Shown in pieces: positions 6,253 to 49,328 of a stretch of DNA of 64,000 nt. The notes under the pieces are model-generated. The model had not been told where the DNA came from. It saw only the letters and a list, made by a program, of their open reading frames with translations, and did not search any database. Positions within the stretch are counted from its first letter, which is position 1, and each line of letters begins with the position of its first letter. This DNA is from Mayamaea pseudoterrestris. Lineage: Eukaryota > Bacillariophyta > Bacillariophyceae > Sellaphorales > Sellaphoraceae. The DNA lies in contig BROI01000010.1 of NCBI GenBank assembly GCA_027923505.1, forward strand, positions 496,001 to 560,000, in the 5' to 3' direction. The translations under genes were made by a program, and so were the position numbers.

Positions 6253-6268
6253 TTAGGGTTAGGGTTAG
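6253..6268 (+). repeat. Interstitial telomeric tract, (TTAGGG)2TTAG
   Basis: The sequence TTAGGGTTAGGGTTAG sits exactly where satellite A1 ends (after catggcctag) and satellite B begins (tgggttgttggg). TTAGGG is the usual telomere repeat of stramenopiles. The G-rich strand points right, as if the A1 block had once been followed by a chromosome end. At 16 bases the tract is short but exact, and no other telomere-like tract was seen. Confidence 0.85.
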
Positions 6269-24030: not shown

Positions 24031-24669
24031 ATGAAGTACTTGTCTGCGATACTCGCACTTGCATCCGCTGGAACGGCGGCGGCTTTTGCCCCGCAAATGC
24101 CGCCAGCGTCGCGCCAATTGACAGTCACGAAGGCAGCTGCTGCCGAAGAGCTGTACATTGACGAGGAACGTCGCTTCCTTATGAACCTCATCATGGTCGG
24201 ATCTGGACTAGTGACTGTCGGTGCTTTCGGTATTCCATATGTTGCCTTCTTTTTTCCACCAGGCAGTGGCGGCGGCTCTGCTGGAAGCGCTGCGAAGGAT
24301 GCCCTTGGTAACGACTTGTTTGCCAAAGAATACCTCGCCACCAAGCCAGCAGGTGACCGTTCGCTCGCGCAAGGATTAAAGGGAGACGCCACTTACCTCA
24401 TCGTCAAGGAAGACAAGACATTGGAGTCGTACGGATTGAACGCTGTCTGCACCCACTTGGGATGCGTAGTTCCATGGTCAGCCGCTGCCAACAAGTTTCA
24501 ATGCCCTTGCCACGGATCCCAGTACGCCCCGGACGGACATGTTGTACGTGGACCGGCGCCGCTTCCACTGGCATTGGCTCATTGCGATACCGACGATACC
24601 GGCAAAATTATCTTCTCGCCGTGGACGGAACCCGATTTCCGTACCGGAGAAAAGGGATGGTGGAACTAA
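24031..24669 (+). CDS. petC: Cytochrome b6-f complex Rieske iron-sulfur subunit, plastid precursor
   Basis: The Rieske protein carries electrons from plastoquinol to cytochrome f (or c6) in the thylakoid b6-f complex. The 212-residue precursor starts with a signal peptide ([17 protein letters not shown]) ending in an AFAP motif at 19-22, the diatom-type signal for import through the ER into a secondary plastid. A single membrane anchor follows (about 49-76), then a Gly-rich hinge (79-85) and the Rieske domain. Both cluster-binding loops are intact: CTHLGC (C140, H142, C145) and CPCHGS (C158, C160, H161). Length and the C-terminal sequence fit nuclear-encoded PetC of algae with red-derived plastids. 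No intron is needed. The gene is unusual in its setting, with satellite DNA on both sides. Confidence 0.97.
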
Positions 24670-26264: not shown

Positions 26265-28284
26265 TGTTGGACCATTCTGGTGTAGTTTGGGCACCTACCG
26301 GGCTTGCTGTAGGGGCATTTGCATGTCATGGCATCTGCGGGCTGAGACTGGTGACAAGTTGTCACCAAATACATTGCCATCCCCCGGGACACCAGCCAAG
26401 CCTACCATCATGTAGCGCAGCCTTAATAATGTTGTTGGCATCAGTCTGGTGTATTTTGGGCACCTACAGGGCTTGCTGTAGGGGCATTTGAATGTCCCGG
26501 CATCTGCGGGCTGAGACTGGTGACAAGTTGTCACCAAATACATTGCCATCCCCTGAGACACCAGCCAAGCCTACCATCTTGTAGCGCAGCTTGAAAAATG
26601 ATGTTGGCACCATTCTGGTGTATTTTGGGCACCTACAGGGCTTGCTGTAGGGGCGTTTGAATGTCATGGCATCTGCGGGCTGAGACTGGTGACAAGCTGT
26701 CACCAAATACATTGCCATCCCCTGAGACAACAGCCAAGCCAACCATCTTGTAGCACATCATATATAATGATGTTGGCACCAGTCTGGTGATATTTGGGCA
26801 CCTACAGGGCTTGCTGTAGGGGCGTTTGAATGTCAAGGCATCTGCGGGCTGAGATTGGTGACAAGTTGTCACCAAATACATTGCCATCCCCTGAGACACC
26901 AACCAAGCCTACCATCTTGTAGCGCAGCCTTAAAAAGGATGTTGGCACCATTCTGGTGTAATTTGGGCACCTACAGGGCTGGCTGTAGGGGCGTTTGAAT
27001 GTCATGGCATCTGCGGCTGAGACTGGTGACAAGTTGTCACCAAATACATTGCCATCCCCTGAGACAACAGCCAAGCCTACCATCTTGTAGCGCATCCTAT
27101 ATAATGATGTTGGCACCATTCTGGTGTAATTTGGGCGCCTACAGGGCTTGCTGTAGGGGTGTTTGAATGTCAAGGCACCTGCAGGCTGAGATTGGTGACA
27201 AGTTGTCACCAAATACATTGCCATCCCCTGAGACACCAACCAAGCCTACCTTCTTGTAGCGCCGCCTGAAAAAGGATGGTGGCACCATTCTGGTGTAATT
27301 TGGGCACCTACAGGGCTTGCTGTAGGGGCGTTTGAATGTCATGGCATCTGCGGGCTGAGACTGGTGACAAGTTGTCACCAAATACATTTCCATCCTTTGA
27401 GACACCCACCAAGCCTACCATCTTGTAGCGCAGCCTAAAAAAAAGGATGTTGGCACCATTCTGGTGTAATTTGGGCACATACAGGGCTTGCTGTAGGGGC
27501 ATTTGAATGTCATGGCATCTGCGGGCTGAGATTGGTGACAAGTTGTCACCAAATACATTGTTATCCCCTGAGACACCAACCAAGCCTACGATCTTGTAGC
27601 GCAGCCTGAAAAAGGATGTTGGCACCATTCTGGTGTAATTTGGGCACCTACAGGGCTTGCTGTAGGGGCGTTTGAATGTCAAGGCACCTGCAGGCTGAGA
27701 CTGGTGACAAGTTGTCACCAAATACATTGCCATCCCCTGAGACACCAACCAAGCCTACAATCTTGTAGCGCAGCCTGAAAAAGGATGCTGGCACCATTCT
27801 GGTGTAATTTGGGCACCTACAGGGCTTGCTGTAGGGGCGTTTGAATGTCATGGCATCTGCGGGCTGAGACTGGTGACAAGTTGTCACCAAATACATTGCC
27901 ATCCCCTGAGACACCAACCAAGCCTACCTTCTTGTAGCGCCGCCTGAAAAAGGATGCTGTCACCATTCTGGTGTAATTTGGGTACCTACCGGGCTTGCTG
28001 TAGGGGTGTTTGAATGTCAAGGCATCTGCGGGCTGAGACTGGTGACAAGTTGTCACCAAATACATTGCCATCCCCTGAGACACCAACCAAGCCTACCTTC
28101 TTGTAGCGCCGCCTGAAAATGGATGTTGGCACCATTCTGGTGTAATTTGGGCACCTACCGGGCTTGCTGTAGGGGTGTTTGAATGTCAAGGCATCTGCGG
28201 GCTGAGACTGGTGACAAGTTGTCACCAAATACATTGCCATCCCCTGAGACACCAGCCAAGCCTACCATCTTGTAGCGCAGCCTG
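26265..28284. repeat. Satellite A2 block left of the 6.9-kb duplication
   Basis: About 12 monomers of 169 bp in the A2 wording (CACCTACAGGGCTTGCTGTAGG, ACCAAATACATTGCCATCCC). The dyad is intact in most copies. It follows satellite C at about 26,265 with a short imperfect join. Confidence 0.95.
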
Positions 28285-31200
28285 AAAAAGGATGTTGGCA
28301 CCATTCTGGTGTAATTTGGGCACCTACAGGGCTTGCTGTAGGGGCGTTTGAATGTCATGGGATCTGCGGGCTGAGACTGGTGACAAGTTGTCACCAAATA
28401 CATTGCCATCCCCTGAGACACCAACCAAGCCTACCTTCTTGTAGCGCAGCCTGAAAAAGGATGCTGTCACCATTCTGGTGTAATTTGGGTACCTACCGGG
28501 CTTGCTGTAGGGGCATTTGAATGTCATGGCATCTGCGGGCTGAGACTGGTGACAAGTTGTCACCAAATACATTGCCATCCCCTGAGACACCAACCAAGCC
28601 TACAATCTTGTAGCGCAGCCTGAAAAAGGATGTTGGCACCATTCTGGTGTAATTTGGGCACCTACCGGGCTTGCTGTAGGGGCGTTTGAATGTCATGGCA
28701 TCTGCGGGCTGAGACTGGTGACAAGTTGTCACCAAATACATTGCCATCCCCTGAGACACCAACCAAGCCTACCTTCGTGTAGCGCAGCCTGAAAAAGGAT
28801 GTTGGCACCATTCTGGTGTAATTTGGGCACCTACCGGGCTTGCTGTAGGGGCGTTTGAATGTCATGGGATCTGCGGGCTGAGACTGGTGACAAGTTGTCA
28901 CCAAATACATTGCCATCCCCTGAGACACCAGCCAAGCCTACCTTCTTGTAGCGCAGCCTAAAAAATGATGTTGTCACCATTCTGGTGTAATTTGGGCACC
29001 TACAGGGCTTGCTGTAGGGGCGTTTGAATGTCATGGCATCTGCGGGCTGAGACTGGTGACAAGTTGTCACCAAATACATTGCCATCCCCTGAGACGCCAA
29101 CTATGCATATTTTCTTGTAGCGCAGCCTAAAAAACTGATGTTGGCACCATTCTGGTGTAATTTGGGCACCTACCGGGCTTGCTGTAGGGGCGTTTGAATG
29201 TCAAGGCACCTGCGGGCTGAGACTGGTGACAAGTTGTCACCAAAGACATTTCCATCCCTTGAGACACCAACCAAGCCTACAATCTTGTAGCGCAGCCTGA
29301 AAAAGGATGTTGGCACCATTCTGGTGTAATTTGGGCACCTACAGGGCTTGCTGTAGGGGCGTTTGAATGTCAAGGCACCTGCGGGCTGAGACTGGTGACA
29401 AGTTGTCACCAAAGACATTTCCATCCCTTGAGACACCAACCAAGCCTACCTTCTTGTAGCGCAGCCTGAAAAAGGATGTTGGCACCATTCTGGTGTAATT
29501 TGGGCACCTACCGGGCTTGCTGTAGGGGCGTTTGAATGTCATGGGATCTGCGGGCTGAGACTGGTGACAAGTTGTCACCAAATACATTGCCATCCCCTGA
29601 GACACCAACCAAGCCTACCATCTTGTAGCGCAGCCTGAAAAAGGATGTTGGCACCATTCTGGTGTAATTTGGGCACCTACCGGGCTTGCTGTAGGGGTGT
29701 TTGAATGTCAAGGCACCTGCAGGCTGAGATTGGTGACAAGTTGTCACCAAATACATTGCCATCCCCTGAGACACCAACCAAGCCTACCTTCGTGTAGCGC
29801 AGCCTGAAAAAGGATGTTGGCACCATTCTGGTGTAATTTGGGCACCTACCGGGCTTGCTGTAGGGGCGTTTGAATGTCATGGGATCTGCGGGCTGAGACT
29901 GGTGACAAGTTGTCACCAAATACATTGCCATCCCCTGAGACACCAACCAAGCCTACCTTCTTGTAGCGCCGCCTGAAAAAGGATGCTGTCACCATTCTGG
30001 TGTAATTTGGGTACCTACCGGGCTTGCTGTAGGGGTGTTTGAATGTCAAGGCACCTGCAGGCTGAGATTGGTGACAAGTTGTCACCAAATACATTGCCAT
30101 CCCCTGAGACACCAACCAAGCCTACCTTCGTGTAGCGCAGCCTGAAAAAGGATGTTGGCACCATTCTGGTGTAATTTGGGCACCTACCGGGCTTGCTGTA
30201 GGGGCGTTTGAATGTCATGGGATCTGCGGGCTGAGACTGGTGACAAGTTGTCACCAAATACATTGCCATCCCCTGAGACACCAGCCAAGCCTACCATCTT
30301 GTAGCGCAGCCTAAAAAAGGATGTTGGCACCATTCTGGTGTAATTTGGGCACCTACAGGGCTTGCTGTAGGGGCGTTTGAATGTCATGGCATCTGCGGGC
30401 TGAGACTGGTGACAAGTTGTCACCAAATACATTGCCATCCCCTGAGACACCAACCAAGCCTACGATCTTGTAGCGCAGCCTAAAAAAATGGATGTTGGCA
30501 CCATTCTGGTGTAATTTGGGCACCTACCGGGCTTGCTGTAGGGGCGTTTGAATGTCAAGGCACCTGCAGGCTGAGATTGGTGACAAGTTGTCACCAAATA
30601 CATTGCCATCCCCTGAGACACCAACCAAGCCTACCATCTTGTAGCGCAGCCTAAAAAAGGATGTTGGCACCATTCTGGTGTAATTTGGGCACCTACAGGG
30701 CTTGCTGTAGGGGCGTTTGAATGTCAAGGCACCTGCGGGCTGAGACTGGTGACAAGTTGTCACCAAAGACATTTCCATCCCTTGAGACACCAACCAAGCC
30801 TACAATCTTGTAGCGCAGCCTGAAAAAGTATGTTGGCACCATTTTGGTGTAATTTGGGCACCTACCGGGCTTGCTGTAGGGGCGTTTGAATGTCATGGGA
30901 TCTGCGGGCTGAGACTGGTGACAAGTTGTCACCAAATACATTGCCATCCCCTGAGACACCAACCAAGCCTACCTTCTTGTAGCGCCGCCTGAAAAAGGAT
31001 GTTGTCACCATTCTGGTGTAATTTGGGTACCTACCGGGCTTGCTGTAGGGGTGTTTGAATGTCAAGGCACCTGCAGGCTGAGATTGGTGACAAGTTGTCA
31101 CCAAATACATTGCCATCCCCTGAGACACCAACCAAGCCTACCTTCGTGTAGCGCAGCCTGAAAAAGGATGTTGGCACCATTCTGGTGTAATTTGGGCACC

Positions 31201-34200
31201 TACCGGGCTTGCTGTAGGGGCGTTTGAATGTCATGGGATCTGCGGGCTGAGACTGGTGACAAGTTGTCACCAAATACATTGCCATCCCCTGAGACACCAG
31301 CCAAGCCTACCATCTTGTAGCGCAGCCTAAAAAAGGATGTTGGCACCATTCTGGTGTAATTTGGGCACATACAGGGCTTGCTGTAGGGGCATTTGAATGT
31401 CATGGCATCTGCGGGCTGAGATTGGTGACAAGTTGTCACCAAATACATTGTTATCCCCTGAGACACCAACCAAGCCTACGATCTTGTAGCGCAGCCTAAA
31501 AAAATGGATGTTGGCACCATTCTGGTGTAATTTGGGCACCTACCGGGCTTGCTGTAGGGGTGTTGGAATGTCAAGGCACCTGCAGGCTGAGATTGGTGAC
31601 AAGTTGTCACCAAATACATTGCCATCCCCTGAGACACCAACCAAGCCTACCTTCTTGTAGCGCCGCCTGAAAAAGGATGTTGGCACCATTCTGGTGTAAT
31701 TTGGGCACCTACAGGGCTTGCTGTAGGGGCGTTTGAATGTCATGGCATCTGCGGGCTGAGACTGGTGACAAGTTGTCACCAAAGACATTTCCATCCCTTG
31801 AGACACCAACCAAGCCTACAATCTTGTAGCACAGCCTGAAAAAGTATGTTGGCACCATTCTGGTGTAATTTGGGCACCTACCGGGCTTGCTGTAGGGGCG
31901 TTTGAATGTCATGGGATCTGCGGGCTGAGACTGGTGACAAGTTGTCACCAAATACATTGCCATCCCCTGAGACACCAACCAAGCCTACCTTCTTGTAGCG
32001 CCGCCTGAAAAAGGATGTTGTCACCATTCTGGTGTACTTTGGGCAACTACCGGGCTTGCTGTAGGGGCGTTTGAATGTCAAGGCACCTGCAGGCTGAGAT
32101 TGGTGACAAGTTGTCATCAAATACATTGCCATCCCCTGAGACACCAACCAAGCCTACCTTCGTGTAGCGCAGCCTGAAAAAGGATGTTGGCACCATTCTG
32201 GTGTAATTTGGGCACCTACCGGGCTTGCTGTAGGGGCGTTTGAATGTCATGGGATCTGCGGGCTGAGACTGGTGACAAGTTGTCACCAAATACATTGCCA
32301 TCCCCTGAGACACCAGACAAGCCTACCCCCTTGTAGCACAGCCGAAATAATGATGTTGGCACCATTCTGGTGTAATTTGGGCACCTACACGGCTTGCTGT
32401 AGGGGCGTTTGAATGTCATGGCATCTGCGGGCTGAGACTGGTGACAAGTTGTCACCAAATACATTGCCATCCCCTGAGACACCAACCAAGCCTACCTTCT
32501 TGTAGCGCCGCCTGAAAAAGGATGTTGGCACCATTCTGGTGTAATTTGGGCACCTACCGGGCTTGCTGTAGGGGTGTTTGAATGTCAAGGCACCTGCAGG
32601 CTGAGATTGGTGACAAGTTGTCACCAAATACATTGCCATCCCCTGAGACACCAACCAAGCCTACCTTCGTGTAGCGCAGCCTGAAAAAGGATTTTGGCAC
32701 CATTCTGGTGTAATTTGGGCACCTACCGGGCTTGCTGTAGGGGCGTTTGAATGTCATGGGATCTGCGGGCTGAGACTGGTGACAAGTTGTCACCAAATAC
32801 ATTGCCATCCCCTGAGACACCAGACAAGCCTACCCCCTTGTAGCACAGCCGAAATAATGATGTTGGCACCATTCTGGTGTAATTTGGGCACCTACCGGGC
32901 TTGCTGTAGGGGCGTTTGAATGTCATGGGATCTGCGGGCTGAGACTGGTGACAAGTTGTCACCAAATACATTGCCATCCCCTGAGACAACCGCCAAGCCA
33001 ACCATCTTGTAGCGCATCCTGAATAATGATGTTGGCACCATTTTGGTGTAATTTTGGCACCTATTGGGCTCGCTGTAGGGGCGTTTGAATGTCAAGGCAC
33101 CTGCGGGCTGAGACTGGTGACAAGTTGTCACCAAATATATTGCCATCCCCTGAGACAACAGCCAATCCTACCATCTCGTAGCGCAACCTGAATAATGATG
33201 TTGGCACCATTCTGGTTTATTTTGGGCACCTACAGGGCCTGATGTAGGGGCGTTTGAATGTCATGGGATCTGCGGGCTGAGACTGGTGACAAGTTGTCAC
33301 CAAATACATTGCCATCCCCTGAGACACCAACCAAGCCTACCATCTTGTAGCGCAGCCTGAAAAAGGATGGTGGCACCATTCTGGTGTAATTTGGGAACTT
33401 AGAGGGCTTGCTGTAGGGGCGTTTGAATGTCATGGCATCTGCGGGCTGAGACTAGTGACAAGTTGTCACCAAATATATTGCCATCCCCTGAGACACCAGT
33501 CAAGCCTATCATCTTGTAGAGCAGCTTAAAAAAGGATGTTGGCACCATTCTAGTGTAATTTGGGCACCTACCAGGCTTGCTGTAGGGGCGTTTGAATTTC
33601 AAGGCACCTGCAGGCTGAGATTGGTGACAAGTTGTCACCAAATACATTGCCATCCCCTGAGACACCAACCAAGCTTACCATCATGTAGCGCAGCCTGAAA
33701 AAGGATGTTGGCACCATTCTGGTGTAATTTGGGCACCTACAGGGCTTGCTGTAGGGGCGTTTGAATGTCATGGCATCTGCGGGCTGAGACTGGTGACAAG
33801 TTGTCACCAAATACATTGCCATCCCCTGAGACACCAACTAAGCCTACCATCTTGTAGCGCAGCCTGTATAATGATGTTGGCACCATTTTGGTGTAATTTG
33901 GGCACCTACAGGGCTTGCTGTAGGGGCATCTGAATGTCATGGCATCTGCGGGCTGAGACTGGTGACAAGTTGTCACCAAATACATTGCCATCCCCTGAGA
34001 CACCAACCAAGCCCACCTTCGTGTAGCGCAGCCTGAAAAAGGATGTTGGCACCATTCTGGTGTAATTTGGGCACCTACAGGGCTTGCTGTAGGGGCATTT
34101 GAACGTCATGGCATCTGGTGACAAGTTGTCACCAAATACATTGCCATCCCCTGAGATACTAACCAAGCTTACCATCTTGTAGCGCAGCCTGAAAAAGGAT

Positions 34201-35152
34201 GCTGGCACCATTCTGGTGTAATTTGGACACCTACCGGGCTTGCTGTAGGGGCGTTTGAATGTCATGTCATCTGCGGGCTGAGACTGGTGACAAGTTGTCA
34301 CCAAATACATTGCCATCCCCTGAGATACTAACCAAGCTTACCATCTTGTAGCGCAGCCTGAAAAAGGATGCTGGCACCATTCTGGTGTAATTTGGACACC
34401 TACCGGGCTTGCTGTAGGGGCGTTTGAATGTCATGTCATCTGCGGGCTGAGACTGGTGACAAGTTGTCACCAAATACATTGCCATCCCCTGAGACAACAG
34501 CCAAGCTAACCATCTTGTAGCGTATCCTGAATAATGATGTTGGCACCAGTCTGGTGTAATTTGGGCACCTACAGGGCTTGCTGTAGGGGCATTTAAATGT
34601 CATGGCATCTGCGGGCTGAGACTGGTGACAAGTTGTCACCAAATACATTGCCATCCCCTGAGACACCAACCAAGCCTACCATCTTGTAGCTCAGCCTACA
34701 TAATGATGTTGGCACCATTCTGGTGTAATTTGGGCACCCACAGGGCTTGCTGTAGGGGCGTTTGAATGTCATGGCACCTGCGGGCTGGGACTGGTGACAA
34801 GTTGTCACCAAATACATTGCCATCCCCTGAGACACCAACCAAGCCTACCATCTTGTAGCGCAGCCTGCATAATGATGTTGGCACCATTTGGGTGTATTTT
34901 GGGCACCTACAGGGCCTGATGTAGGGGACTTTGAATGTCAAGGCACCTGCGGGCTGAGATTGGTGACAAGTTGTCACCAAATACATTGCCATACCCTGAG
35001 ACACCAACCAAGCCAACCATCTTGTAGCGTATCCTGAATAATGATGTTGGCACCAGTCTGGTGTAAATTGGGCACCTACAGGGCTTGCTGTAGGGGCATT
35101 TGATTATCATGGCATCTGCCGGCTGAGACTGGTGACAAGTTGTCACCACAAT
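28285..35152. repeat. 6868-bp tandem duplication of satellite A2, copy 1
   Basis: About 40 A2 monomers that match copy 2 base for base over long stretches. By eye I find three substitutions, two near 28,980 and one near 29,173. The copy ends GTTGTCACCACAAT, where CAAT equals the first bases of the CoDi element's LTR rather than satellite sequence, and then joins the AAAAAGG that starts copy 2. Internal sub-repeats of about six monomers (about 1016 bp) are also visible. Confidence 0.93.
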
Positions 35153-38100
35153 AAAAAGGATGTTGGCACCATTCTGGTGTAATTTGGGCACCTACAGGGC
35201 TTGCTGTAGGGGCGTTTGAATGTCATGGGATCTGCGGGCTGAGACTGGTGACAAGTTGTCACCAAATACATTGCCATCCCCTGAGACACCAACCAAGCCT
35301 ACCTTCTTGTAGCGCAGCCTGAAAAAGGATGCTGTCACCATTCTGGTGTAATTTGGGTACCTACCGGGCTTGCTGTAGGGGCATTTGAATGTCATGGCAT
35401 CTGCGGGCTGAGACTGGTGACAAGTTGTCACCAAATACATTGCCATCCCCTGAGACACCAACCAAGCCTACAATCTTGTAGCGCAGCCTGAAAAAGGATG
35501 TTGGCACCATTCTGGTGTAATTTGGGCACCTACCGGGCTTGCTGTAGGGGCGTTTGAATGTCATGGCATCTGCGGGCTGAGACTGGTGACAAGTTGTCAC
35601 CAAATACATTGCCATCCCCTGAGACACCAACCAAGCCTACCTTCGTGTAGCGCAGCCTGAAAAAGGATGTTGGCACCATTCTGGTGTAATTTGGGCACCT
35701 ACCGGGCTTGCTGTAGGGGCGTTTGAATGTCATGGGATCTGCGGGCTGAGACTGGTGACAAGTTGTCACCAAATACATTGCCATCCCCTGAGACACCAGC
35801 CAAGCCTACCTTCTTGTAGCGCAGCCCAAAAAAGGATGTTGTCACCATTCTGGTGTAATTTGGGCACCTACAGGGCTTGCTGTAGGGGCGTTTGAATGTC
35901 ATGGCATCTGCGGGCTGAGACTGGTGACAAGTTGTCACCAAATACATTGCCATCCCCTGAGACGCCAACTATGCATATTTTCTTGTAGCGCAGCCTAAAA
36001 AACTGATGTTGGCACCATTCTGGTGTAATTTGGGCACCTACAGGGCTTGCTGTAGGGGCGTTTGAATGTCAAGGCACCTGCGGGCTGAGACTGGTGACAA
36101 GTTGTCACCAAAGACATTTCCATCCCTTGAGACACCAACCAAGCCTACAATCTTGTAGCGCAGCCTGAAAAAGGATGTTGGCACCATTCTGGTGTAATTT
36201 GGGCACCTACAGGGCTTGCTGTAGGGGCGTTTGAATGTCAAGGCACCTGCGGGCTGAGACTGGTGACAAGTTGTCACCAAAGACATTTCCATCCCTTGAG
36301 ACACCAACCAAGCCTACCTTCTTGTAGCGCAGCCTGAAAAAGGATGTTGGCACCATTCTGGTGTAATTTGGGCACCTACCGGGCTTGCTGTAGGGGCGTT
36401 TGAATGTCATGGGATCTGCGGGCTGAGACTGGTGACAAGTTGTCACCAAATACATTGCCATCCCCTGAGACACCAACCAAGCCTACCATCTTGTAGCGCA
36501 GCCTGAAAAAGGATGTTGGCACCATTCTGGTGTAATTTGGGCACCTACCGGGCTTGCTGTAGGGGTGTTTGAATGTCAAGGCACCTGCAGGCTGAGATTG
36601 GTGACAAGTTGTCACCAAATACATTGCCATCCCCTGAGACACCAACCAAGCCTACCTTCGTGTAGCGCAGCCTGAAAAAGGATGTTGGCACCATTCTGGT
36701 GTAATTTGGGCACCTACCGGGCTTGCTGTAGGGGCGTTTGAATGTCATGGGATCTGCGGGCTGAGACTGGTGACAAGTTGTCACCAAATACATTGCCATC
36801 CCCTGAGACACCAACCAAGCCTACCTTCTTGTAGCGCCGCCTGAAAAAGGATGCTGTCACCATTCTGGTGTAATTTGGGTACCTACCGGGCTTGCTGTAG
36901 GGGTGTTTGAATGTCAAGGCACCTGCAGGCTGAGATTGGTGACAAGTTGTCACCAAATACATTGCCATCCCCTGAGACACCAACCAAGCCTACCTTCGTG
37001 TAGCGCAGCCTGAAAAAGGATGTTGGCACCATTCTGGTGTAATTTGGGCACCTACCGGGCTTGCTGTAGGGGCGTTTGAATGTCATGGGATCTGCGGGCT
37101 GAGACTGGTGACAAGTTGTCACCAAATACATTGCCATCCCCTGAGACACCAGCCAAGCCTACCATCTTGTAGCGCAGCCTAAAAAAGGATGTTGGCACCA
37201 TTCTGGTGTAATTTGGGCACCTACAGGGCTTGCTGTAGGGGCGTTTGAATGTCATGGCATCTGCGGGCTGAGACTGGTGACAAGTTGTCACCAAATACAT
37301 TGCCATCCCCTGAGACACCAACCAAGCCTACGATCTTGTAGCGCAGCCTAAAAAAATGGATGTTGGCACCATTCTGGTGTAATTTGGGCACCTACCGGGC
37401 TTGCTGTAGGGGCGTTTGAATGTCAAGGCACCTGCAGGCTGAGATTGGTGACAAGTTGTCACCAAATACATTGCCATCCCCTGAGACACCAACCAAGCCT
37501 ACCATCTTGTAGCGCAGCCTAAAAAAGGATGTTGGCACCATTCTGGTGTAATTTGGGCACCTACAGGGCTTGCTGTAGGGGCGTTTGAATGTCAAGGCAC
37601 CTGCGGGCTGAGACTGGTGACAAGTTGTCACCAAAGACATTTCCATCCCTTGAGACACCAACCAAGCCTACAATCTTGTAGCGCAGCCTGAAAAAGTATG
37701 TTGGCACCATTTTGGTGTAATTTGGGCACCTACCGGGCTTGCTGTAGGGGCGTTTGAATGTCATGGGATCTGCGGGCTGAGACTGGTGACAAGTTGTCAC
37801 CAAATACATTGCCATCCCCTGAGACACCAACCAAGCCTACCTTCTTGTAGCGCCGCCTGAAAAAGGATGTTGTCACCATTCTGGTGTAATTTGGGTACCT
37901 ACCGGGCTTGCTGTAGGGGTGTTTGAATGTCAAGGCACCTGCAGGCTGAGATTGGTGACAAGTTGTCACCAAATACATTGCCATCCCCTGAGACACCAAC
38001 CAAGCCTACCTTCGTGTAGCGCAGCCTGAAAAAGGATGTTGGCACCATTCTGGTGTAATTTGGGCACCTACCGGGCTTGCTGTAGGGGCGTTTGAATGTC

Positions 38101-41100
38101 ATGGGATCTGCGGGCTGAGACTGGTGACAAGTTGTCACCAAATACATTGCCATCCCCTGAGACACCAGCCAAGCCTACCATCTTGTAGCGCAGCCTAAAA
38201 AAGGATGTTGGCACCATTCTGGTGTAATTTGGGCACATACAGGGCTTGCTGTAGGGGCATTTGAATGTCATGGCATCTGCGGGCTGAGATTGGTGACAAG
38301 TTGTCACCAAATACATTGTTATCCCCTGAGACACCAACCAAGCCTACGATCTTGTAGCGCAGCCTAAAAAAATGGATGTTGGCACCATTCTGGTGTAATT
38401 TGGGCACCTACCGGGCTTGCTGTAGGGGTGTTGGAATGTCAAGGCACCTGCAGGCTGAGATTGGTGACAAGTTGTCACCAAATACATTGCCATCCCCTGA
38501 GACACCAACCAAGCCTACCTTCTTGTAGCGCCGCCTGAAAAAGGATGTTGGCACCATTCTGGTGTAATTTGGGCACCTACAGGGCTTGCTGTAGGGGCGT
38601 TTGAATGTCATGGCATCTGCGGGCTGAGACTGGTGACAAGTTGTCACCAAAGACATTTCCATCCCTTGAGACACCAACCAAGCCTACAATCTTGTAGCAC
38701 AGCCTGAAAAAGTATGTTGGCACCATTCTGGTGTAATTTGGGCACCTACCGGGCTTGCTGTAGGGGCGTTTGAATGTCATGGGATCTGCGGGCTGAGACT
38801 GGTGACAAGTTGTCACCAAATACATTGCCATCCCCTGAGACACCAACCAAGCCTACCTTCTTGTAGCGCCGCCTGAAAAAGGATGTTGTCACCATTCTGG
38901 TGTACTTTGGGCAACTACCGGGCTTGCTGTAGGGGCGTTTGAATGTCAAGGCACCTGCAGGCTGAGATTGGTGACAAGTTGTCATCAAATACATTGCCAT
39001 CCCCTGAGACACCAACCAAGCCTACCTTCGTGTAGCGCAGCCTGAAAAAGGATGTTGGCACCATTCTGGTGTAATTTGGGCACCTACCGGGCTTGCTGTA
39101 GGGGCGTTTGAATGTCATGGGATCTGCGGGCTGAGACTGGTGACAAGTTGTCACCAAATACATTGCCATCCCCTGAGACACCAGACAAGCCTACCCCCTT
39201 GTAGCACAGCCGAAATAATGATGTTGGCACCATTCTGGTGTAATTTGGGCACCTACACGGCTTGCTGTAGGGGCGTTTGAATGTCATGGCATCTGCGGGC
39301 TGAGACTGGTGACAAGTTGTCACCAAATACATTGCCATCCCCTGAGACACCAACCAAGCCTACCTTCTTGTAGCGCCGCCTGAAAAAGGATGTTGGCACC
39401 ATTCTGGTGTAATTTGGGCACCTACCGGGCTTGCTGTAGGGGTGTTTGAATGTCAAGGCACCTGCAGGCTGAGATTGGTGACAAGTTGTCACCAAATACA
39501 TTGCCATCCCCTGAGACACCAACCAAGCCTACCTTCGTGTAGCGCAGCCTGAAAAAGGATTTTGGCACCATTCTGGTGTAATTTGGGCACCTACCGGGCT
39601 TGCTGTAGGGGCGTTTGAATGTCATGGGATCTGCGGGCTGAGACTGGTGACAAGTTGTCACCAAATACATTGCCATCCCCTGAGACACCAGACAAGCCTA
39701 CCCCCTTGTAGCACAGCCGAAATAATGATGTTGGCACCATTCTGGTGTAATTTGGGCACCTACCGGGCTTGCTGTAGGGGCGTTTGAATGTCATGGGATC
39801 TGCGGGCTGAGACTGGTGACAAGTTGTCACCAAATACATTGCCATCCCCTGAGACAACCGCCAAGCCAACCATCTTGTAGCGCATCCTGAATAATGATGT
39901 TGGCACCATTTTGGTGTAATTTTGGCACCTATTGGGCTCGCTGTAGGGGCGTTTGAATGTCAAGGCACCTGCGGGCTGAGACTGGTGACAAGTTGTCACC
40001 AAATATATTGCCATCCCCTGAGACAACAGCCAATCCTACCATCTCGTAGCGCAACCTGAATAATGATGTTGGCACCATTCTGGTTTATTTTGGGCACCTA
40101 CAGGGCCTGATGTAGGGGCGTTTGAATGTCATGGGATCTGCGGGCTGAGACTGGTGACAAGTTGTCACCAAATACATTGCCATCCCCTGAGACACCAACC
40201 AAGCCTACCATCTTGTAGCGCAGCCTGAAAAAGGATGGTGGCACCATTCTGGTGTAATTTGGGAACTTAGAGGGCTTGCTGTAGGGGCGTTTGAATGTCA
40301 TGGCATCTGCGGGCTGAGACTAGTGACAAGTTGTCACCAAATATATTGCCATCCCCTGAGACACCAGTCAAGCCTATCATCTTGTAGAGCAGCTTAAAAA
40401 AGGATGTTGGCACCATTCTAGTGTAATTTGGGCACCTACCAGGCTTGCTGTAGGGGCGTTTGAATTTCAAGGCACCTGCAGGCTGAGATTGGTGACAAGT
40501 TGTCACCAAATACATTGCCATCCCCTGAGACACCAACCAAGCTTACCATCATGTAGCGCAGCCTGAAAAAGGATGTTGGCACCATTCTGGTGTAATTTGG
40601 GCACCTACAGGGCTTGCTGTAGGGGCGTTTGAATGTCATGGCATCTGCGGGCTGAGACTGGTGACAAGTTGTCACCAAATACATTGCCATCCCCTGAGAC
40701 ACCAACTAAGCCTACCATCTTGTAGCGCAGCCTGTATAATGATGTTGGCACCATTTTGGTGTAATTTGGGCACCTACAGGGCTTGCTGTAGGGGCATCTG
40801 AATGTCATGGCATCTGCGGGCTGAGACTGGTGACAAGTTGTCACCAAATACATTGCCATCCCCTGAGACACCAACCAAGCCCACCTTCGTGTAGCGCAGC
40901 CTGAAAAAGGATGTTGGCACCATTCTGGTGTAATTTGGGCACCTACAGGGCTTGCTGTAGGGGCATTTGAACGTCATGGCATCTGGTGACAAGTTGTCAC
41001 CAAATACATTGCCATCCCCTGAGATACTAACCAAGCTTACCATCTTGTAGCGCAGCCTGAAAAAGGATGCTGGCACCATTCTGGTGTAATTTGGACACCT

Positions 41101-42020
41101 ACCGGGCTTGCTGTAGGGGCGTTTGAATGTCATGTCATCTGCGGGCTGAGACTGGTGACAAGTTGTCACCAAATACATTGCCATCCCCTGAGATACTAAC
41201 CAAGCTTACCATCTTGTAGCGCAGCCTGAAAAAGGATGCTGGCACCATTCTGGTGTAATTTGGACACCTACCGGGCTTGCTGTAGGGGCGTTTGAATGTC
41301 ATGTCATCTGCGGGCTGAGACTGGTGACAAGTTGTCACCAAATACATTGCCATCCCCTGAGACAACAGCCAAGCTAACCATCTTGTAGCGTATCCTGAAT
41401 AATGATGTTGGCACCAGTCTGGTGTAATTTGGGCACCTACAGGGCTTGCTGTAGGGGCATTTAAATGTCATGGCATCTGCGGGCTGAGACTGGTGACAAG
41501 TTGTCACCAAATACATTGCCATCCCCTGAGACACCAACCAAGCCTACCATCTTGTAGCTCAGCCTACATAATGATGTTGGCACCATTCTGGTGTAATTTG
41601 GGCACCCACAGGGCTTGCTGTAGGGGCGTTTGAATGTCATGGCACCTGCGGGCTGGGACTGGTGACAAGTTGTCACCAAATACATTGCCATCCCCTGAGA
41701 CACCAACCAAGCCTACCATCTTGTAGCGCAGCCTGCATAATGATGTTGGCACCATTTGGGTGTATTTTGGGCACCTACAGGGCCTGATGTAGGGGACTTT
41801 GAATGTCAAGGCACCTGCGGGCTGAGATTGGTGACAAGTTGTCACCAAATACATTGCCATACCCTGAGACACCAACCAAGCCAACCATCTTGTAGCGTAT
41901 CCTGAATAATGATGTTGGCACCAGTCTGGTGTAAATTGGGCACCTACAGGGCTTGCTGTAGGGGCATTTGATTATCATGGCATCTGCCGGCTGAGACTGG
42001 TGACAAGTTGTCACCACAAT
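35153..42020. repeat. 6868-bp tandem duplication of satellite A2, copy 2
   Basis: The second copy, at a constant offset of 6868 bp. Its last four bases (42017-42020) are the first four of the 5' LTR. The following AA is shared by both junctions, so the breakpoint is placed within about 2 bp. Confidence 0.93.
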
Positions 42021-42234
42021 AAGATTCCATGGGAGTCGCCCAAAACTAGACTAAAGATCCAATCCTATTAGGCGACGAGAGTCTTGTCGTGGACAAGACT
42101 AGCGGCGGCAATCTTGTTGGGAACAAGACTGCTTTAGGTTCGAACGTAACTATTTAGCTCACTTCTTTAACAAGTCGCATACATGAACCCGTACTAGTAA
42201 ACGAGATCTATTACGGTCACACGTATCTTTATTG
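42017..42234 (+). repeat. 5' LTR of the CoDi-like element
   Basis: 218 bp, starting CAATAAGATTCC and ending ATCTTTATTG, so the ends form the short inverted repeat CAATAA/TTATTG rather than the common TG/CA. Directly inside lies GTTTATCAG, which weakly resembles a Met-tRNA-type primer binding site. Confidence 0.95.
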
Positions 42235-42736
42235 GTTTATCAGATTCCCATATGCTTTGCTATGAGCAACTAGCAACTTGTTCGGGGTGCATTGGCCGGG
42301 GACGGCTTCATTATCGAATAATATCTGATGCTCTGAGCATCGCTCGACGGGAAGCGATTCCACCGTGGCTTGCACTAATGTGTGTCGACAAGTACACATT
42401 TCCACGCGTCGTCAGTACCCGACCAAAGGTATTTACAAGACCGAGCAACACTCCTGTCGTTTGGACGCTTGCGACAAACCCCACTCCTTGCCACTGGGAA
42501 ATTCCACATTGCATTTCGCTACTCGCTTTGTATGACAAGTCGGAGGTGTGGTGATCAGGGTCGCATGCCAGTACCGACAATGCTGATCGGCAATTCTTGC
42601 CAGTAAATGATTCGTCGGCGAGCTCAACCAACTTGCTGAATCAATCCGACGCGCACTACGAACGAACAAGATGGTGTACAAACATGAATGATCCAAAATA
42701 ACCATGTTTCTTTATTTGACTTACGCTATGAGCAAG

Positions 42737-43384
42737 TTAAATGTCACAACTTTGGATGCAACCCACATATGCTTCAGGAAAATACTGCGCATGAAGCCCA
42801 CTATGACGGACCCAGAAAGGCATCGCATCGATGGAGCTATAGACCAGATCTGGACGAATGGATTCCTGCCAATTGGACTCCTGCTCGCGCTTCCTGCTGG
42901 CCTTTCGATAAGCTCGCATCCTCGCCATGTTCCTGGCCCGAGTATCCTTGTGGCGCAACTTGCAATTCGTTTCCAACCATGGTGCTTGCAGGAGTTGATG
43001 AATCGTCAGTCTTGTCCAATCAAACTCTCCAGACTGACGCCGCACTTGTTTGACAATGTGTTGAAGCACGTCGTCGTGCAGGAAGTGCTTTGTTCCGCGA
43101 GGCAACTCGTAGAGGTGGAAGCGTGCTGGACTCACGTCATAGCCATGCTCAATTGGTTCGCCCATTTCCATCAGAACAATGTCTTCGCGTCGCGAAGTGA
43201 AGCATTTCAACTTGTAGAGTTCAGCCTCTATGCCTCTCAGCTTGGAAGGATCCAAAGGATTCAATGTTGGGTGGAGCTTTCCGCTGCGACGCAAGTCGTC
43301 GATGCGTGTGGACCTTTTGACGAGTTGCATTGACATCACAGTTTTGCTGACAGAGGAAATTGTGACGATTTGCTGGCCAAACAC
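42737..43384 (-). CDS. Antisense open frame in the element's leader, unknown
   Basis: A 215-codon frame on the strand opposite to pol, within the unusually long stretch between the 5' LTR and gag. The product would be basic and charged and shows no domain I recognise. The opposite strand is also open over much of the same stretch, so part of the openness may be compositional. It could be an extra gene carried by the element, captured host sequence, or chance. Confidence 0.25.
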   Translation of the reverse strand: MFGQQIVTISSVSKTVMSMQLVKRSTRIDDLRRSGKLHPTLNPLDPSKLRGIEAELYKLKCFTSRREDIVLMEMGEPIEHGYDVSPARFHLYELPRGTKHFLHDDVLQHIVKQVRRQSGEFDWTRLTIHQLLQAPWLETNCKLRHKDTRARNMARMRAYRKASRKREQESNWQESIRPDLVYSSIDAMPFWVRHSGLHAQYFPEAYVGCIQSCDI

Positions 43385-43792
43385 TCGCAGGTTGCGTCAG
43401 TTGACTTGCTCTTTTCGTTGTCCAACGCGCGTTGATCGCGCGTTACATGAGTTAAGTACAGCTGAAACGGAAGCGTTGTGTCGAAATTTCGTGCGTTGCG
43501 TGCAAACATTTCAACAGTGACGCACTTTAAACACATTATGGTGTGTGTGCTTTGTGAATCTTGCGAAATATTTGTGACAACGGTCGTTCGTGCGCAATGT
43601 TCCTGGCGAAATATCAAACTTTGCTACAGTTGGATATGCCGAATCTTTACAAGAGTGCGCACCATTTCTTCATTTTGAACAAATATTTGCTCTCACAATA
43701 TCGTCTTTCCTACAAGGTCAAACGCTGTTGTATCAAGCTACTAAGTCCTCTACCCTTTCGTCCCTAGTCTACCTACCTACCTCTCTGCCAAC

Positions 43793-45036
43793 ATGGATGC
43801 CAACTTCGCCAACTACCTCACGAACGAGCTCACTATCCCTGCTCCCATGCAGGATGCGCTTCTTGCCCAAGGACTTGAGACATTTGATGATCTCAAGATG
43901 TTGGAGGATACGCAAGTTGAGTCTCTCATTCAGGCCATGCGCCGTCCTGGCGGAGTCAACCCAGCCAAGCTGGCGAATCTTGCAGCCCGACTGCTTCGCA
44001 CCATTCTGGTGTATTTTGGGCACGCAGGTGGCTTTTGACCCGGCGATTCACCAAGGCTTGCGTGCCGCGCGTCCAAGTTGTCGCCAGAGATGTCCACCCT
44101 GACACCGCCAAGCAGCTCCATTGGCGCGAAGCCTGAGTTGTCTTCGTGCTGTTGCACGGCTTGCTGGGGGTTGACCAACGCTCTGCGGCTGGACTGAAGT
44201 GCATGCTCGCCGCCTTTCGGACGCATCTGCAACCCTTGCGATCATCAAATGTGTTGGCACCGCCAGGCCCTACATGCTCCCGGCGCGGCGAGTTGACGCT
44301 GTCATTATCTGTGCGATCCAGCCGCCGCCGGATTAAGGTCGAGGCAGAAGCCAAGCTCAAGTTCAATATGTGAGCCAGACCAAGACTCTATGGGAGAAAT
44401 TCCTTGTAATTTTGAAAGGCTGCTTTAATGATCTATTGCAAGAAGGCAAAGTGCTTACTGACGAAGAGAGATCACTTTGCTCAACGCTTCCATTCAAAAC
44501 GACGCTTTGCAAGCTGAGCGAGCCTAATTTGAAGACTGACGACATCGGCTCGACACCTCTATGACAAGGTTGTACCTACTACACCCTTGGACCATGAATA
44601 TTAAATCCAAGCAGCGCAACGTCGCGTCGCGCTGAGACATCTTGGCAGCCCTTCACAAGGGCATCCATCTCGCTGAAGTCAGGCAACTGGTTTCCAAAGG
44701 CGTTTGGGACTGAAGAAGGATGGTCCCGTGGACAAAGGGAGGCATACAAGAAGAAGAACGGAGAGAACGCAGTGGAGGTGGTGGTGGCGCTACTCAGGGT
44801 ACAGATGCTCACCCAAGTCAAGCCTAATACACCTCACCTGAAACACACTGATCGCCTGCCATCAAACGCGCTGATAGATGTAGGGCCAGGGGAGGGGGAC
44901 AGGCTCGCAGAGGGAAAATGCCAGCATGCAGTGGACAGGCGAGCAAGAGTTGAAATAAATCTCCAAGCTTTCACCCAGCGGCCTCAAAAGGTTCAACCCT
45001 TTTCACGGATTACCTATCAAGGCTCGGTAGCAAGTT
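43793..45036 (+). pseudogene. gag-side region of the CoDi-like element
   Basis: It starts with a frame resembling the N-terminus of diatom Copia gag proteins: a small helical segment of about 45 residues ending in the motif RRPGG. The rest of the region is not a clean gag and is treated as fossil sequence. It includes a stretch (about 43,961-44,135) that resembles a satellite A monomer. Confidence 0.6.
43998..44023 (+). repeat. 26-bp exact satellite A match inside the element
   Basis: The 26 bases from GCACCATTCTGGTG to TTTTGGGCAC equal the same part of satellite A monomers, for example those with the TATTTTGGGCACC linker near 975-1000. Weaker similarity continues in the same order on both sides: AGCCAAGC and ATCTTG.AGC to the left, AAGTTGTC.CC and a GACACC.GCCAAGC-like stretch to the right. 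Confidence 0.8.
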
Positions 45037-48000
45037 TTGATGTATCCGGACGGCGCAAGCGCCGAGCTCGTGACTAGGCACGCGGACACTTGCTGCTTCT
45101 CAAGTAGATACTGCAGTGTGGTTGCTACGCAAGATCAGACAGTATCTGTTACGCCCTTCATGGAAGGAATGGGTTGCGTCGAGAATGTCCAAGTTGCTGA
45201 TGTGCTTGTGGCATACGACCATCCATTGGAGCTGAAGACTTATATGCTTCGGTTCAACCAAGTCTTGCTGTTTGACAATCTCAATTGTCATCTGCTCAAT
45301 CCAAATCAAATGCGTTTGAATGACTTGGAGGTACACGACTGTCCACGATTCCTCTCTAAGGCAAAAGGAAAGAAGGTGCACAGCATTCTTGCACCAGAAG
45401 CTGGCTTGCACATTCCGCTACTCTGTGATGGAGTCATTTCCTTATTTCATGCGAGAAAGCCTACAGAGGAGGACAAGGATACCTATGAGTGGATCGATAT
45501 GACCTACTCAAGCCCACAATACAATCCACAAGACGACAGCTTTACAAGAAGGGAAGAAGCCCTCATGGAGGAAACTTATCCTGGCATTGACTTTGACATG
45601 TTTGATCGGAGCATCTCCAAGGTGGGAGTGTCAATTTGGCAATCACCAAGAGATGTCTTGTCAACGATCAAGGAAGACAAGTGCTTCTCGCATGCTGATA
45701 TGATCAGAATTCAAAGTGCTGTCCGAACGCGGAAACGAAAGGGAGCTGTGACTGCCGAACAGTTGCAGCGCCGATGGAACATTGGATTGGAGACGGCAAG
45801 AAAGACTCTTCAGGTTGTAACTCAGCTTGGAGTTCGACACTTTGCTGGGGAGCGGCCCATGCGAAGAATGTGGTCGAGAGCAGAAGCCTTGCGCTTTCGC
45901 AATCTGAACACGTTCATGTTCACCGACACTATGCAAGGACCTTGCAAGTCGCGCAGAGGCAACCAATATCTCCAAGTATACTGCACAGATGCGAGTTTCA
46001 CATCTGTGTATCCAATGAAGGCAAGAAAGCAAGCACCAGAGACCCTGGAGCTACTATTTCGCGATGTTGGAGTACCCAAGATCTTGACGCCGGACAATGC
46101 ACCTGAGCTTGTCGCAGGCGACTTTCTCAAGAAGGCAAGAGCTGCAGGCTCTCATATCCACTCCACCGAGCCATGGACTCCAAATCATCAACGCTGTGAA
46201 TCTACCAATCATGTCCTGAAACGCATGTACAAGCGCGCAATGCGTAAGTCTAATGCTCCAACACGGTTTTGGGATGATTGCTACGAGTTGCAGGCTGCGA
46301 TTAACAGTCATATGGCGCACGACAAGATCGTTCTCGATGGACACACTCCAAGGTCATACTTGCTAGGGGACACAGCTGATATCTCGCATATTGCTGAGTT
46401 TGCTTGGTATGACTGGGTGTGGTATTGGAACCCGCCAAAGCTGGACGAAGATAACTATCTTCTTGGACGCTATCTGGGGCCTTCTGCTGACGTTGGACAA
46501 GCTATGACTTCAAAGATACTGACTGACACAGGGGCAGTGGTCCACCGGTCATCAGTCTTCCCAATGTCAGATGAGGATCTAAGGGATGACGCTCTCAATG
46601 CCAAGAAAGAAGCTTTCAACAGAGTGATACAAGATCGGTATGGCATTGGCTACAACCAAGATCCTGTAATCGTTGCCAATCCAGAAGTACCCGAATATGA
46701 ACCACCGGAGTATCAGCCTTACGAGGATGAGACTACCAAAGAAGAGCAAGCTCCTGACGCGGATGATGTTGACTGGGAAGCCTACGACAGATTCCTACTT
46801 GCAGAAGTTCTTCTACCGGATGGAGGCGGACTTGTGCTGGGCACAGTCAAAGCCAGGAAACGAGATGCCAGTGGGAACCCTCTTGGTGTTGCGCACTCGA
46901 ATCCAATCATTGACACGGCAGTCTACGAAGTTGAACTTCCGGATGGACGAGTCAAAGAATACGCTGCCAACATTATTGCTGAGCATATCTTCAGTCGAAT
47001 CGACGATGAGGGACGAAGGATCATAGTCCTCAAAGAGATTTTGGACCACAAGACAGATGGCACAGCTGTTGCGCAAGCTGACAAATATGTCACAAACAAA
47101 GACGGTACTACCTTCCAGGGGAGACAACAACTGCGCAAGACCACGAAGGGTTGGTGGTTGCTTGTGTCTTGGATGGATGGCACCGAGTCATGGGAACGCT
47201 TAGCAGACTTAAAGGAGTCACATCCGATCGAAGTTGCCGAGTACGCCGTTTCAAACCAGCTCTCCAAGGAACCTGCTTTTGAATGGTGGGTAGGATTATT
47301 CCTCAAGAATCGGGATCGCATCATCAAGAAGGTGAAAGCCCGAATCGCCAAGAACACGCACAAGTTTGGCATTCAAGTTCCAACGTCGGTTAAGCATGCT
47401 CTAGAAATTGACCGAGACACCGGTACAGATTTCTGGAAGAAGGCTTTGGCCAAGGAAATGACAAATGTCATGCCAGCGTTTCGCTTCTTGGATGCGGAAG
47501 AACCTGATCCTGTGGGACACCAGCTTATCAGATGCCATATGATCTTTGATGTTAAAATGGATCTGACTCGCAAAGCTCGGTTTGTCGCCGGAGGCCACGT
47601 CACTGAGACACCGTCATCCATGACTTATCAAAGCGTTGTTTCACGAGAAAGCGTTCGCATTGCGTTTCTCTTGGCTGCTTTGAACGATTACGAAATCTGC
47701 TGCGCAGATATTCAAAATGCATACATCTCTGCTCCATGTCGGGAGAAGATTTGGACCAAGTGTGGGCCAGAGTTTGACTCCAGTCACCAAGGTCAACGCG
47801 CTGTCATTGTTCGCGCTCTCTATGGACTCAAGTCTGCCGCTCGTGCCTTTGGATCATACCTGGCCGAAACGCTCCGAGACTTGGGATGGGAGCCGTGTCG
47901 CGGGGAGCCAGACGTTCGAATGCGGTCTCGCACCAAGGCAAACGGGGAGAAGATTTGGGAATACCTGCTTGTCTGGACAGATGACTTGCTCATGCTGGGG

Positions 48001-49053
48001 CTTGATCCAAAGCAAGGACTCGAGGAAATCAACAAATTCTTCACTCTCAAGGAAGGATCCATTGGGGAACCTACACAATACCTTGGTTCTACTATCTCCA
48101 GGTACACCTTTGACGGTGACCCAAAAGCGTATTGGGCCATGGGTTCATCCAAATACGTGAAGGAAGCTATCAAGAATGTCGAAACGCATCTTGCAGCATC
48201 CAACAAGTTCCTAAAGACGAAGATTGCGGGTCCTTTGCCCAGTGGTTATGAACCAGATCTTGATACGTCACCGGAGTGCAATGAAGAAGAACATTCCTAC
48301 TACATGTCGCAAGTACAAGTCCTGCGCTGGGCTGTTGAGCTTGGAAGGATTGATGTTGCTACTGAAGTTTCAATGTTGGCTTCGCACATGGCGTCTCCAA
48401 GAAAGGGTCATCTGGATGCGTTATTTCATATTTGGGCATATCTCAAGCATCACAGTCGGTCAAGGATGGTGTTTGATTCAGCTTACAAGTCGCTGCAGTC
48501 CAAGGATCCACCGCCAGAATGGAAGGAATTCTATCACGACGCGGAGGAACGTATTCCTGTGGATATGCCGGAAGCCAGGGGCAAGCCGGTACAGATCATT
48601 TGCTTTGTGGATGCTTCACACGGAAGTGAGAAGAAGACGCGAAGATCAAGGACAGGTATACTCATATACTTGAATTCAGCTCCTATATCATGGCTCTCCA
48701 AGAGGCAGAACACGATAGAGACAAGTAGCTTTGGCGCGGAGTTCACAGCTCTTCGCATAGCATCTGAAATGATTGTGGCCTTGAGGTTCAAGCTTCGAAT
48801 GATGGGAATTCCTATTGATGGTCCTGCACATGTAAGATGCGACAACGAGGCTGTCGTGAAGAACACGTCAGCACCAGAGTCCATGTTGAACAAGAAGCAC
48901 AATGCCGTCGCCTATCACTACGTGCGCGAACGCGTGGCGGAAGGCACATTGAGCGTTCACAAAGAGGATGGTAAGACGAACTTAGCTGATATGCTGACGA
49001 AGTCTCAACCAGGACCTATGAGGACTGAGATGGCGAGAAAGCTGCTCTATTGA
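45037..49053 (+). CDS. Copia-type pol of the CoDi-like element
   Basis: An open frame of 1338 codons. Regions in order are a protease-like start, an integrase core (about 45,900-46,440, with an FTDT...DNAPE...E pattern), a chromodomain-like segment (about 47,130-47,260, WWLLVSWMDGTESWE), reverse transcriptase (about 47,440-48,200, with ADIQNAYISAP, ALYGLKSAARAF and VWTDDLLML) and RNase H (about 48,595-49,030, with FVDASHGSEKK, SSFGAEFTAL and ADMLTKSQPG). The integrase-before-RT order and the RNase H wording are diagnostic of Ty1/Copia. A chromodomain-like part could bias insertion toward heterochromatin, which would fit the satellite target. This is known for other element groups and is inference here. 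Confidence 0.95.
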   Translation: MMYPDGASAELVTRHADTCCFSSRYCSVVATQDQTVSVTPFMEGMGCVENVQVADVLVAYDHPLELKTYMLRFNQVLLFDNLNCHLLNPNQMRLNDLEVHDCPRFLSKAKGKKVHSILAPEAGLHIPLLCDGVISLFHARKPTEEDKDTYEWIDMTYSSPQYNPQDDSFTRREEALMEETYPGIDFDMFDRSISKVGVSIWQSPRDVLSTIKEDKCFSHADMIRIQSAVRTRKRKGAVTAEQLQRRWNIGLETARKTLQVVTQLGVRHFAGERPMRRMWSRAEALRFRNLNTFMFTDTMQGPCKSRRGNQYLQVYCTDASFTSVYPMKARKQAPETLELLFRDVGVPKILTPDNAPELVAGDFLKKARAAGSHIHSTEPWTPNHQRCESTNHVLKRMYKRAMRKSNAPTRFWDDCYELQAAINSHMAHDKIVLDGHTPRSYLLGDTADISHIAEFAWYDWVWYWNPPKLDEDNYLLGRYLGPSADVGQAMTSKILTDTGAVVHRSSVFPMSDEDLRDDALNAKKEAFNRVIQDRYGIGYNQDPVIVANPEVPEYEPPEYQPYEDETTKEEQAPDADDVDWEAYDRFLLAEVLLPDGGGLVLGTVKARKRDASGNPLGVAHSNPIIDTAVYEVELPDGRVKEYAANIIAEHIFSRIDDEGRRIIVLKEILDHKTDGTAVAQADKYVTNKDGTTFQGRQQLRKTTKGWWLLVSWMDGTESWERLADLKESHPIEVAEYAVSNQLSKEPAFEWWVGLFLKNRDRIIKKVKARIAKNTHKFGIQVPTSVKHALEIDRDTGTDFWKKALAKEMTNVMPAFRFLDAEEPDPVGHQLIRCHMIFDVKMDLTRKARFVAGGHVTETPSSMTYQSVVSRESVRIAFLLAALNDYEICCADIQNAYISAPCREKIWTKCGPEFDSSHQGQRAVIVRALYGLKSAARAFGSYLAETLRDLGWEPCRGEPDVRMRSRTKANGEKIWEYLLVWTDDLLMLGLDPKQGLEEINKFFTLKEGSIGEPTQYLGSTISRYTFDGDPKAYWAMGSSKYVKEAIKNVETHLAASNKFLKTKIAGPLPSGYEPDLDTSPECNEEEHSYYMSQVQVLRWAVELGRIDVATEVSMLASHMASPRKGHLDALFHIWAYLKHHSRSRMVFDSAYKSLQSKDPPPEWKEFYHDAEERIPVDMPEARGKPVQIICFVDASHGSEKKTRRSRTGILIYLNSAPISWLSKRQNTIETSSFGAEFTALRIASEMIVALRFKLRMMGIPIDGPAHVRCDNEAVVKNTSAPESMLNKKHNAVAYHYVRERVAEGTLSVHKEDGKTNLADMLTKSQPGPMRTEMARKLLY

Positions 49054-49328
49054 GAGTAGAATTGCTGGCTATGAGCAAGCGACAACAGGCTTGGAGGTTT
49101 GCCTTGGAACTCGACACTGTCGATGACCTAAAGTCATGGAGCTTCGGCCGACACCTTCAACCAAGTATGACTTGGACCACAGAACATACAGTAAAGGGAA
49201 ACTGAGGCACATATCGAGCAGGATAGTTTACGCACTTGACTGATGGATGGAATGAGTTGGTGTTGCACTGAACAGCTAAGGCGACTACTTGAGGCGGTAG
49301 AGACCAATGCAGTTCAATGCAAGGGGAG

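Follow-up and report, generated by a model that had tools for sequence, protein, structure and literature searches.

The closest described counterpart of the locus examined here lies in maize centromere 10, where a 22.7-kb adjacent segmental duplication starts in retrotransposon coding sequence and ends within an LTR (PMC4806543). As described in that report, the joint carries 5 shared nucleotides, the duplication was assigned to alternative end joining and is confirmed by independent read sets, and the CentC higher-order repeats of the same centromere were also traced to adjacent duplication (PMC4806543). In yeast, recombination between flanking Ty1 LTRs is described as yielding tandem duplications (PMC11790251). 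Duplications can also be false, and such cases have been reported together with haplotype handling in popular vertebrate assemblies (PMC9516828). At the level of listings and abstracts, we recognised no instance of the same pattern in the literature on satellites with retrotransposons and duplication or in that on integration intermediates.

The DNA analysed here, referred to below as the window, is a 64-kb stretch (C10:496001–560000) from an assembly with 41 contigs and a total length of 30,627,229 bases, and it contains two adjacent, almost identical 6868-bp blocks of satellite next to a copia-type retrotransposon. The locus resembles the maize duplication as described in that it presents an adjacent, apparently young copy in satellite and retrotransposon sequence, one of whose edges falls within an LTR, and in that the two sides of the joint have a few bases in common. 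It differs in that 2 bp rather than 5 are shared and in that the start lies in satellite rather than in retrotransposon coding sequence; moreover, the maize duplication is confirmed by independent reads. As in the CentC higher-order repeats, a satellite segment is copied beside itself, and a young element interrupts one CentC copy; there, however, the element is reported to have entered after the duplication, whereas here the insertion came first, with LTR bases included in copy 1. The yeast Ty1 duplications also have an LTR at the duplication edge, but they depend on homology between two LTRs, whereas here a single LTR edge is joined to unrelated satellite. With the false duplications of PMC9516828 the locus would share a spurious extra copy of very high identity, in this case a repeat segment used twice. 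We consider it somewhat probable, at roughly 60%, that one of the two 6868-bp copies is false and was made by the assembly.

The retrotransposon and the satellite on its two sides are organised as follows.

26265–42016, + strand: 169-bp satellite array left of the element, containing both block copies
42013–42016, + strand: left target-site duplication, ACCA
42017–49546, + strand: copia-type LTR retrotransposon, 7530 bp, with the ends CAATAA...TTATTG
42017–42234, + strand: 5′ LTR, 218 bp, starting CAATAAGA at 42017
49329–49546, + strand: 3′ LTR, 218 bp, the same as the 5′ LTR over 218 of 218 bases
49547–49550, + strand: right target-site duplication, ACCA
49547–57129, + strand: 169-bp satellite array resuming right of the element

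The element is defined by its paired direct LTRs (218 bp, no differences) and by the 4-bp ACCA target-site duplication, and the identity of both LTRs suggests that the insertion is young. Its 1338-aa open reading frame matched the reverse transcriptase family RVT_2 in Pfam (PF07727, E=1.2e-11), and no other Pfam family, integrase included, was found in this frame at E≤0.001. A further copy of the element is present on contig C23 (LTR 97%), and an 81-bp LTR fragment is present on contig C32 (88%). The CoDi copia-like elements of diatoms are reported to be 5182–8062 bp long with LTRs of 153–844 bp, and a 4-bp target site is given for Blackbeard (PMC2806351). Compared by these published sizes and ends, our element agrees with CoDi in size range, LTR range and the 4-bp target site. 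It differs from most CoDi families, 23 of 26 of which have TG/CA ends (PMC2806351), in that its LTR ends are CAATAA...TTATTG instead of TG...CA.

The duplicated block and its joint occupy the following positions.

28285–35152, + strand: copy 1 of the 6868-bp satellite block, whose final 4 bases, CAAT (35149–35152), are LTR sequence
35153–42020, + strand: copy 2 of the block, next to the intact LTR, with the match extending through AA to 42022
35140–35255, + strand: junction monomer, out of register and of clean sequence, 116 bp against the normal 169 bp

An earlier note on this DNA had described the duplication from the letters and had proposed a pairwise alignment at an offset of 6868 bp. That comparison reproduced the duplication exact to the base. 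The identity starts at 28285 and breaks off past 35154/42022, and the two direct copies are the same at 6865 of 6868 bases, with no indels and three substitutions (sites 28959, 28966 and 29174), where the note had spoken of about three. Because the monomers of the array diverge by approximately 2–7% from their own consensus, a chance likeness of the two blocks is excluded.

The joint is fully explained by two parent sequences. Copy 1 ends in CACCA followed by CAAT and then continues AAAAAGG, while copy 2 ends in the same CACCA and CAAT and continues AAGATT; the left parent of the junction is CCTG followed by AAAAAGG, and the right parent is the LTR. The dinucleotide AA is common to both sides of the junction, so that 2 bp can be assigned to either parent. 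The LTR bases within copy 1 are thus CAAT with certainty (4) and CAATAA at most (6), which places the edge 4–6 bp into the LTR and bears out the earlier reading of the end of copy 1 as the start of the LTR. Satellite wording as the origin of CAAT, which the note had considered a possible refutation if the same wording was found in other monomers, is ruled out by these two parents. In the 64-kb window, CACAATAA occurs at three places on the + strand and at none on the other strand; two of these places are the ends of the block copies, and the third (6029) is satellite in a different monomer phase, CAGCCACAATAATAATG. Four places in the assembly carry GTTGTCACCACAAT, namely the two 6868-bp copies, one non-satellite sequence on contig C1, and one diverged monomer on contig C30 that continues differently (TGCTGG). 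The junction word GTTGTCACCACAATAAAAAGGATG occurs at one place in the whole assembly.

Anchor positions in the array fall on a 169-bp lattice, and this allowed the order of events to be examined. When the element and one ACCA are removed, the spacing over the insertion is exactly 169 bp, and when copy 1 is removed, the spacing over the joint is likewise exactly 169 bp. Since the removal of either restores the regular spacing, the insertion and the copying are both derived changes to a regular array. Because copy 1 contains LTR bases, the copying came after the insertion, as the earlier note had argued; duplication before insertion would need the element to strike the exact end of the copied block, and we rejected it. 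That the insertion came first and the copying second follows from the sequence, and this order would apply to a molecular event and to an assembly event alike. Unequal exchange of aligned monomers would preserve the register. The block length of 6868 bp corresponds to 40.64 × 169 bp, rather than to the whole number of monomers that unequal crossing-over requires, and in-register unequal crossing-over is ruled out by this length and by the 116-bp junction monomer.

The main alternative is a real tandem duplication that followed the insertion of the element and was produced by end joining or by template switching during replication, although we place it on the unlikely side. On the end-joining route, to which we give the same tentative weight, a broken or stalled end 4–6 bp into the LTR would have been joined, on the sister chromatid, to an AAAAAGG site that lies 6868 bp upstream and shares no more than 2 bp (AA) with it. 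The clean junction, accounted for by two parents plus AA, speaks for this route, as does the out-of-register copy, which is expected of illegitimate joining. A published precedent comes from maize centromere 10, where a 22.7-kb adjacent duplication ends in an LTR (PMC4806543). However, an overlap of at least 2 bp is expected in 16% of random joins, and the 2-bp overlap is therefore no evidence of the use of microhomology. The sequence shared at the joint does not exceed what chance would give, and the joining may possibly have been blunt.

We scanned 23 stretches comprising 276,000 bases for further copies, at offsets between 400 bp and an upper limit of 9000 bp or half the length of the stretch, and recorded the best place per offset with an identity of at least 95%. 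The stretches were picked mostly for holding this 169-bp satellite and represent a non-random sample (approximately 144 kb of the first 268 kb scanned is 169-bp satellite), and rows at separate offsets within one array are not independent. This full offset scan superseded a motif-lattice scan for register shifts, which had found five shifts and missed the cases on C23 and C33. The exact adjacent copies besides the 6868-bp block are as follows.

C23:3789–6176 and 6176–8563: exact adjacent copy, out of register, offset 2387, overlap 1 bp
C33:257041–257686 and 257687–258332 (7041–8332 of L035): exact double copy, 646 bp each, overlap 0
Window 7140–8673 and 8674–10207: exact 1534-bp adjacent copy in a 352-bp (180+172) higher-order array, 126 bp off register

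Three rows of the scan fall in the 352-bp array. Outside this array, the 23 stretches yielded six out-of-register rows, with identities of 1.0, 1.0, 0.9996, 0.9779, 0.9558 and 0.9531; three are thus at 99.96–100% and three at 95.3–97.8%, with none between. The in-register rows (n=122) occupied every identity bin, and one of them reached at least 99.9%. Measured against the 169-bp period, the near-perfect out-of-register copies have their right edge 0–6 bp from a satellite border in all three cases, while the left edge coincides with a border in one of the three, on C33 only. To check the satellite borders in the three cases, we aligned the sequences with the monomer. For the 6868-bp block in the window, the last satellite base is 42016 and the copy extends to 42020–42022. 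The C23 array ends at 8562 (strict scoring) or 8568 and its copy at 8563, with the left edge inside the array. The C33 satellite island (257041–258332, or to 258325 under strict scoring) sits in another repeat and has the same outer borders as the double copy. The junction overlaps in the window, C23 and C33 (2, 1 and 0 bp) are not above those of random joins. No exact adjacent copy was found in the 8-kb stretch from contig C18 (L047).

The results of the scan favour an artefact in three respects: the near-perfect sister copies recur with edges at repeat borders, out-of-register copies of intermediate identity are absent while the in-register rows span all bins, and the junction overlaps show no excess over random joins. 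The assembly probably placed one satellite segment twice, head to tail. The reused segment would be genuine array ending at the satellite/LTR border, and the reads used may have left the copy number in the near-uniform satellite unfixed, so that the segment was doubled. The reuse of a segment that ends at a border predicts both the border edges and the age gap, neither of which is predicted by end joining at random breaks.

A burst of real copying at borders, combined with fast turnover, would fit the border edges and the age gap too. More generally, satellite arrays might grow by out-of-register copying from their borders, whether these are native ends or the edges of newly inserted retrotransposons, a proposal that we consider doubtful. 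A replication fork or repair tract would stall at the edge between satellite and foreign DNA and jump back into the array, and an insertion would thereby seed array expansion. The absence of middle-aged copies would then reflect either a very fast turnover or events during the life of the culture. If the copy is real, such border-driven array growth becomes testable.

The position of the edge, just 4–6 bp inside the LTR, and the identical LTRs, by which the insertion is young as well, speak for the idea that the insertion and the duplication are one event or closely tied. Gap repair or replication would in this case have run a few bases into the LTR, switched back and recopied the upstream satellite. 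Both the coupling and this copying route appear very improbable to us, because the sister cases end at borders with no LTR nearby, which makes the element unnecessary for the pattern, and because no second insertion with such a copy was seen, the other LTR-bearing places being the two on C23 and C32.

All three substitutions are located 675–890 bp from the left end of the block, a clustering with a chance of 0.4% (for either end), which favours a false copy. At the first two differing sites, each copy is one step off a variant that the window and fetched stretches contain 12 times, whereas each copy's own context occurs in them once. These two of the three substitutions resemble private changes that arose from a common variant, as end joining would have it, and the pattern would fit either two genuine copies or two alleles. 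Gene conversion at these sites was rejected, as no donor was seen in the window and the fetched stretches and the common variant is one step from both copies. At the third site each of the two letters is frequent, with 65 and 453 places, and gene conversion may have acted there. At a point mutation rate of 4.77e-10 per site per generation, three differences would correspond to approximately 0.46 million generations, a date that we set aside, given that the copy may not be genuine. If two haplotypes had been placed end to end, with copy 1 as one allele and copy 2 as the other, the result would be a false allele duplication, which is described as a known assembly problem (PMC9516828). However, if the strain is heterozygous, 3 differences over 6868 bp are few for a pair of alleles, and one would expect the join between alleles to keep the register, so that we regard this arrangement as scarcely probable.

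The quality of the assembly was found to vary locally, both within the element and within the satellite. One patch stands out in the element.

43995–45080 (outer end approximate), + strand: deletion-rich, raw-read-like patch in the gag region of the element

Compared with the element copy on C23, positions 44301–45010 show 68 deletion events, 26 mismatches and 7 insertion events in 644 aligned bases, and positions 42017–43897 show 30 mismatches and 3 indel events in 1879 bases. Farther along the element, none of the twelve 100-bp tiles in 45101–46300 contains any event, the tile at 46301 contains 11 indel events, and the next three contain none. Inside the gag region, positions 43995–44136, with which the patch begins, align to one noisy satellite monomer (score 69; best of 60 shuffles 25). 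Because the LTRs of the element are identical, the patch is hardly due to age, and its appearance is that of long-read sequence left unpolished or of a chimeric join. The satellite at 15921–19420 shows 128 deletion events, 64 insertion events and 146 mismatches in 3364 aligned bases, compared with 12 deletion events, 9 insertion events and 105 mismatches in 4980 bases of clean array. Over approximately 15421–21100, 14–37 gaps per 500-bp tile were counted in 10 of 12 tiles (15421–21420, aligned well or partly), with 3–11% mismatches, and the dominance of indels suggests raw-read error rather than decay. In the other fetched stretches, six satellite tiles of 500 bp have at least 12 gaps. Both block copies and their joint are clean, with no noise at the join. 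The noisy gag patch with its satellite monomer and the error-rich satellite indicate a locally poor assembly, which favours the artefact.

From the near-exact copy, the register shift, the border edge, the noisy patches and the sister cases, we infer that an assembly step, rather than the cell, made the copy. Several observations argue against this. The junction and the copies are clean, and an overlap error in satellite would be expected in register, which the 6868-bp copy is not. The left edges (28285 and that of the C23 case) lie inside arrays, away from borders, and the fourth exact copy (window 7140–8673, in the 352-bp array) is wholly interior, with no edge at the array border. At two of the three differing sites, the copies are each one step from a common variant, as real copies would be, and a real duplication of the same shape has been reported in maize (PMC4806543). 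The earlier note had left the choice between a very recent duplication and an assembly artefact; the sister cases and the noisy patches favour the artefact half without settling the matter. Neither these two lines of evidence nor the register shift figured in that note.

If the copy is false, the array is inflated by 6.9 kb, which calls for caution with satellite copy-number or age estimates from this assembly, and any adjacent copy that is near-perfect, out of register and bounded on one side by a repeat border becomes suspect. If it is real, the locus would belong with the adjacent duplications reported from maize centromere 10 (PMC4806543), and it would provide an ordered case, in which a 4-base tag shows insertion and then duplication and the edge of a retrotransposon serves as a breakpoint of satellite expansion.

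The window also contains genes. A complete PetC (Rieske) open reading frame lies at 24031–24669, between two satellite arrays. A multicopper oxidase frame (61032–63346) spans two overlapping open reading frames, with Cu-oxidase_2 in the second, suggesting either an intron or an assembly frameshift. The light-harvesting family PF00504 gave 53 matches, counted exon by exon, and two open reading frames of light-harvesting type matched, at the cut-offs applied, chains of entry 9vfj only. The source, presumably a diatom, appears from the PF00504 matches and the PetC/Rieske gene to be a photosynthetic alga.
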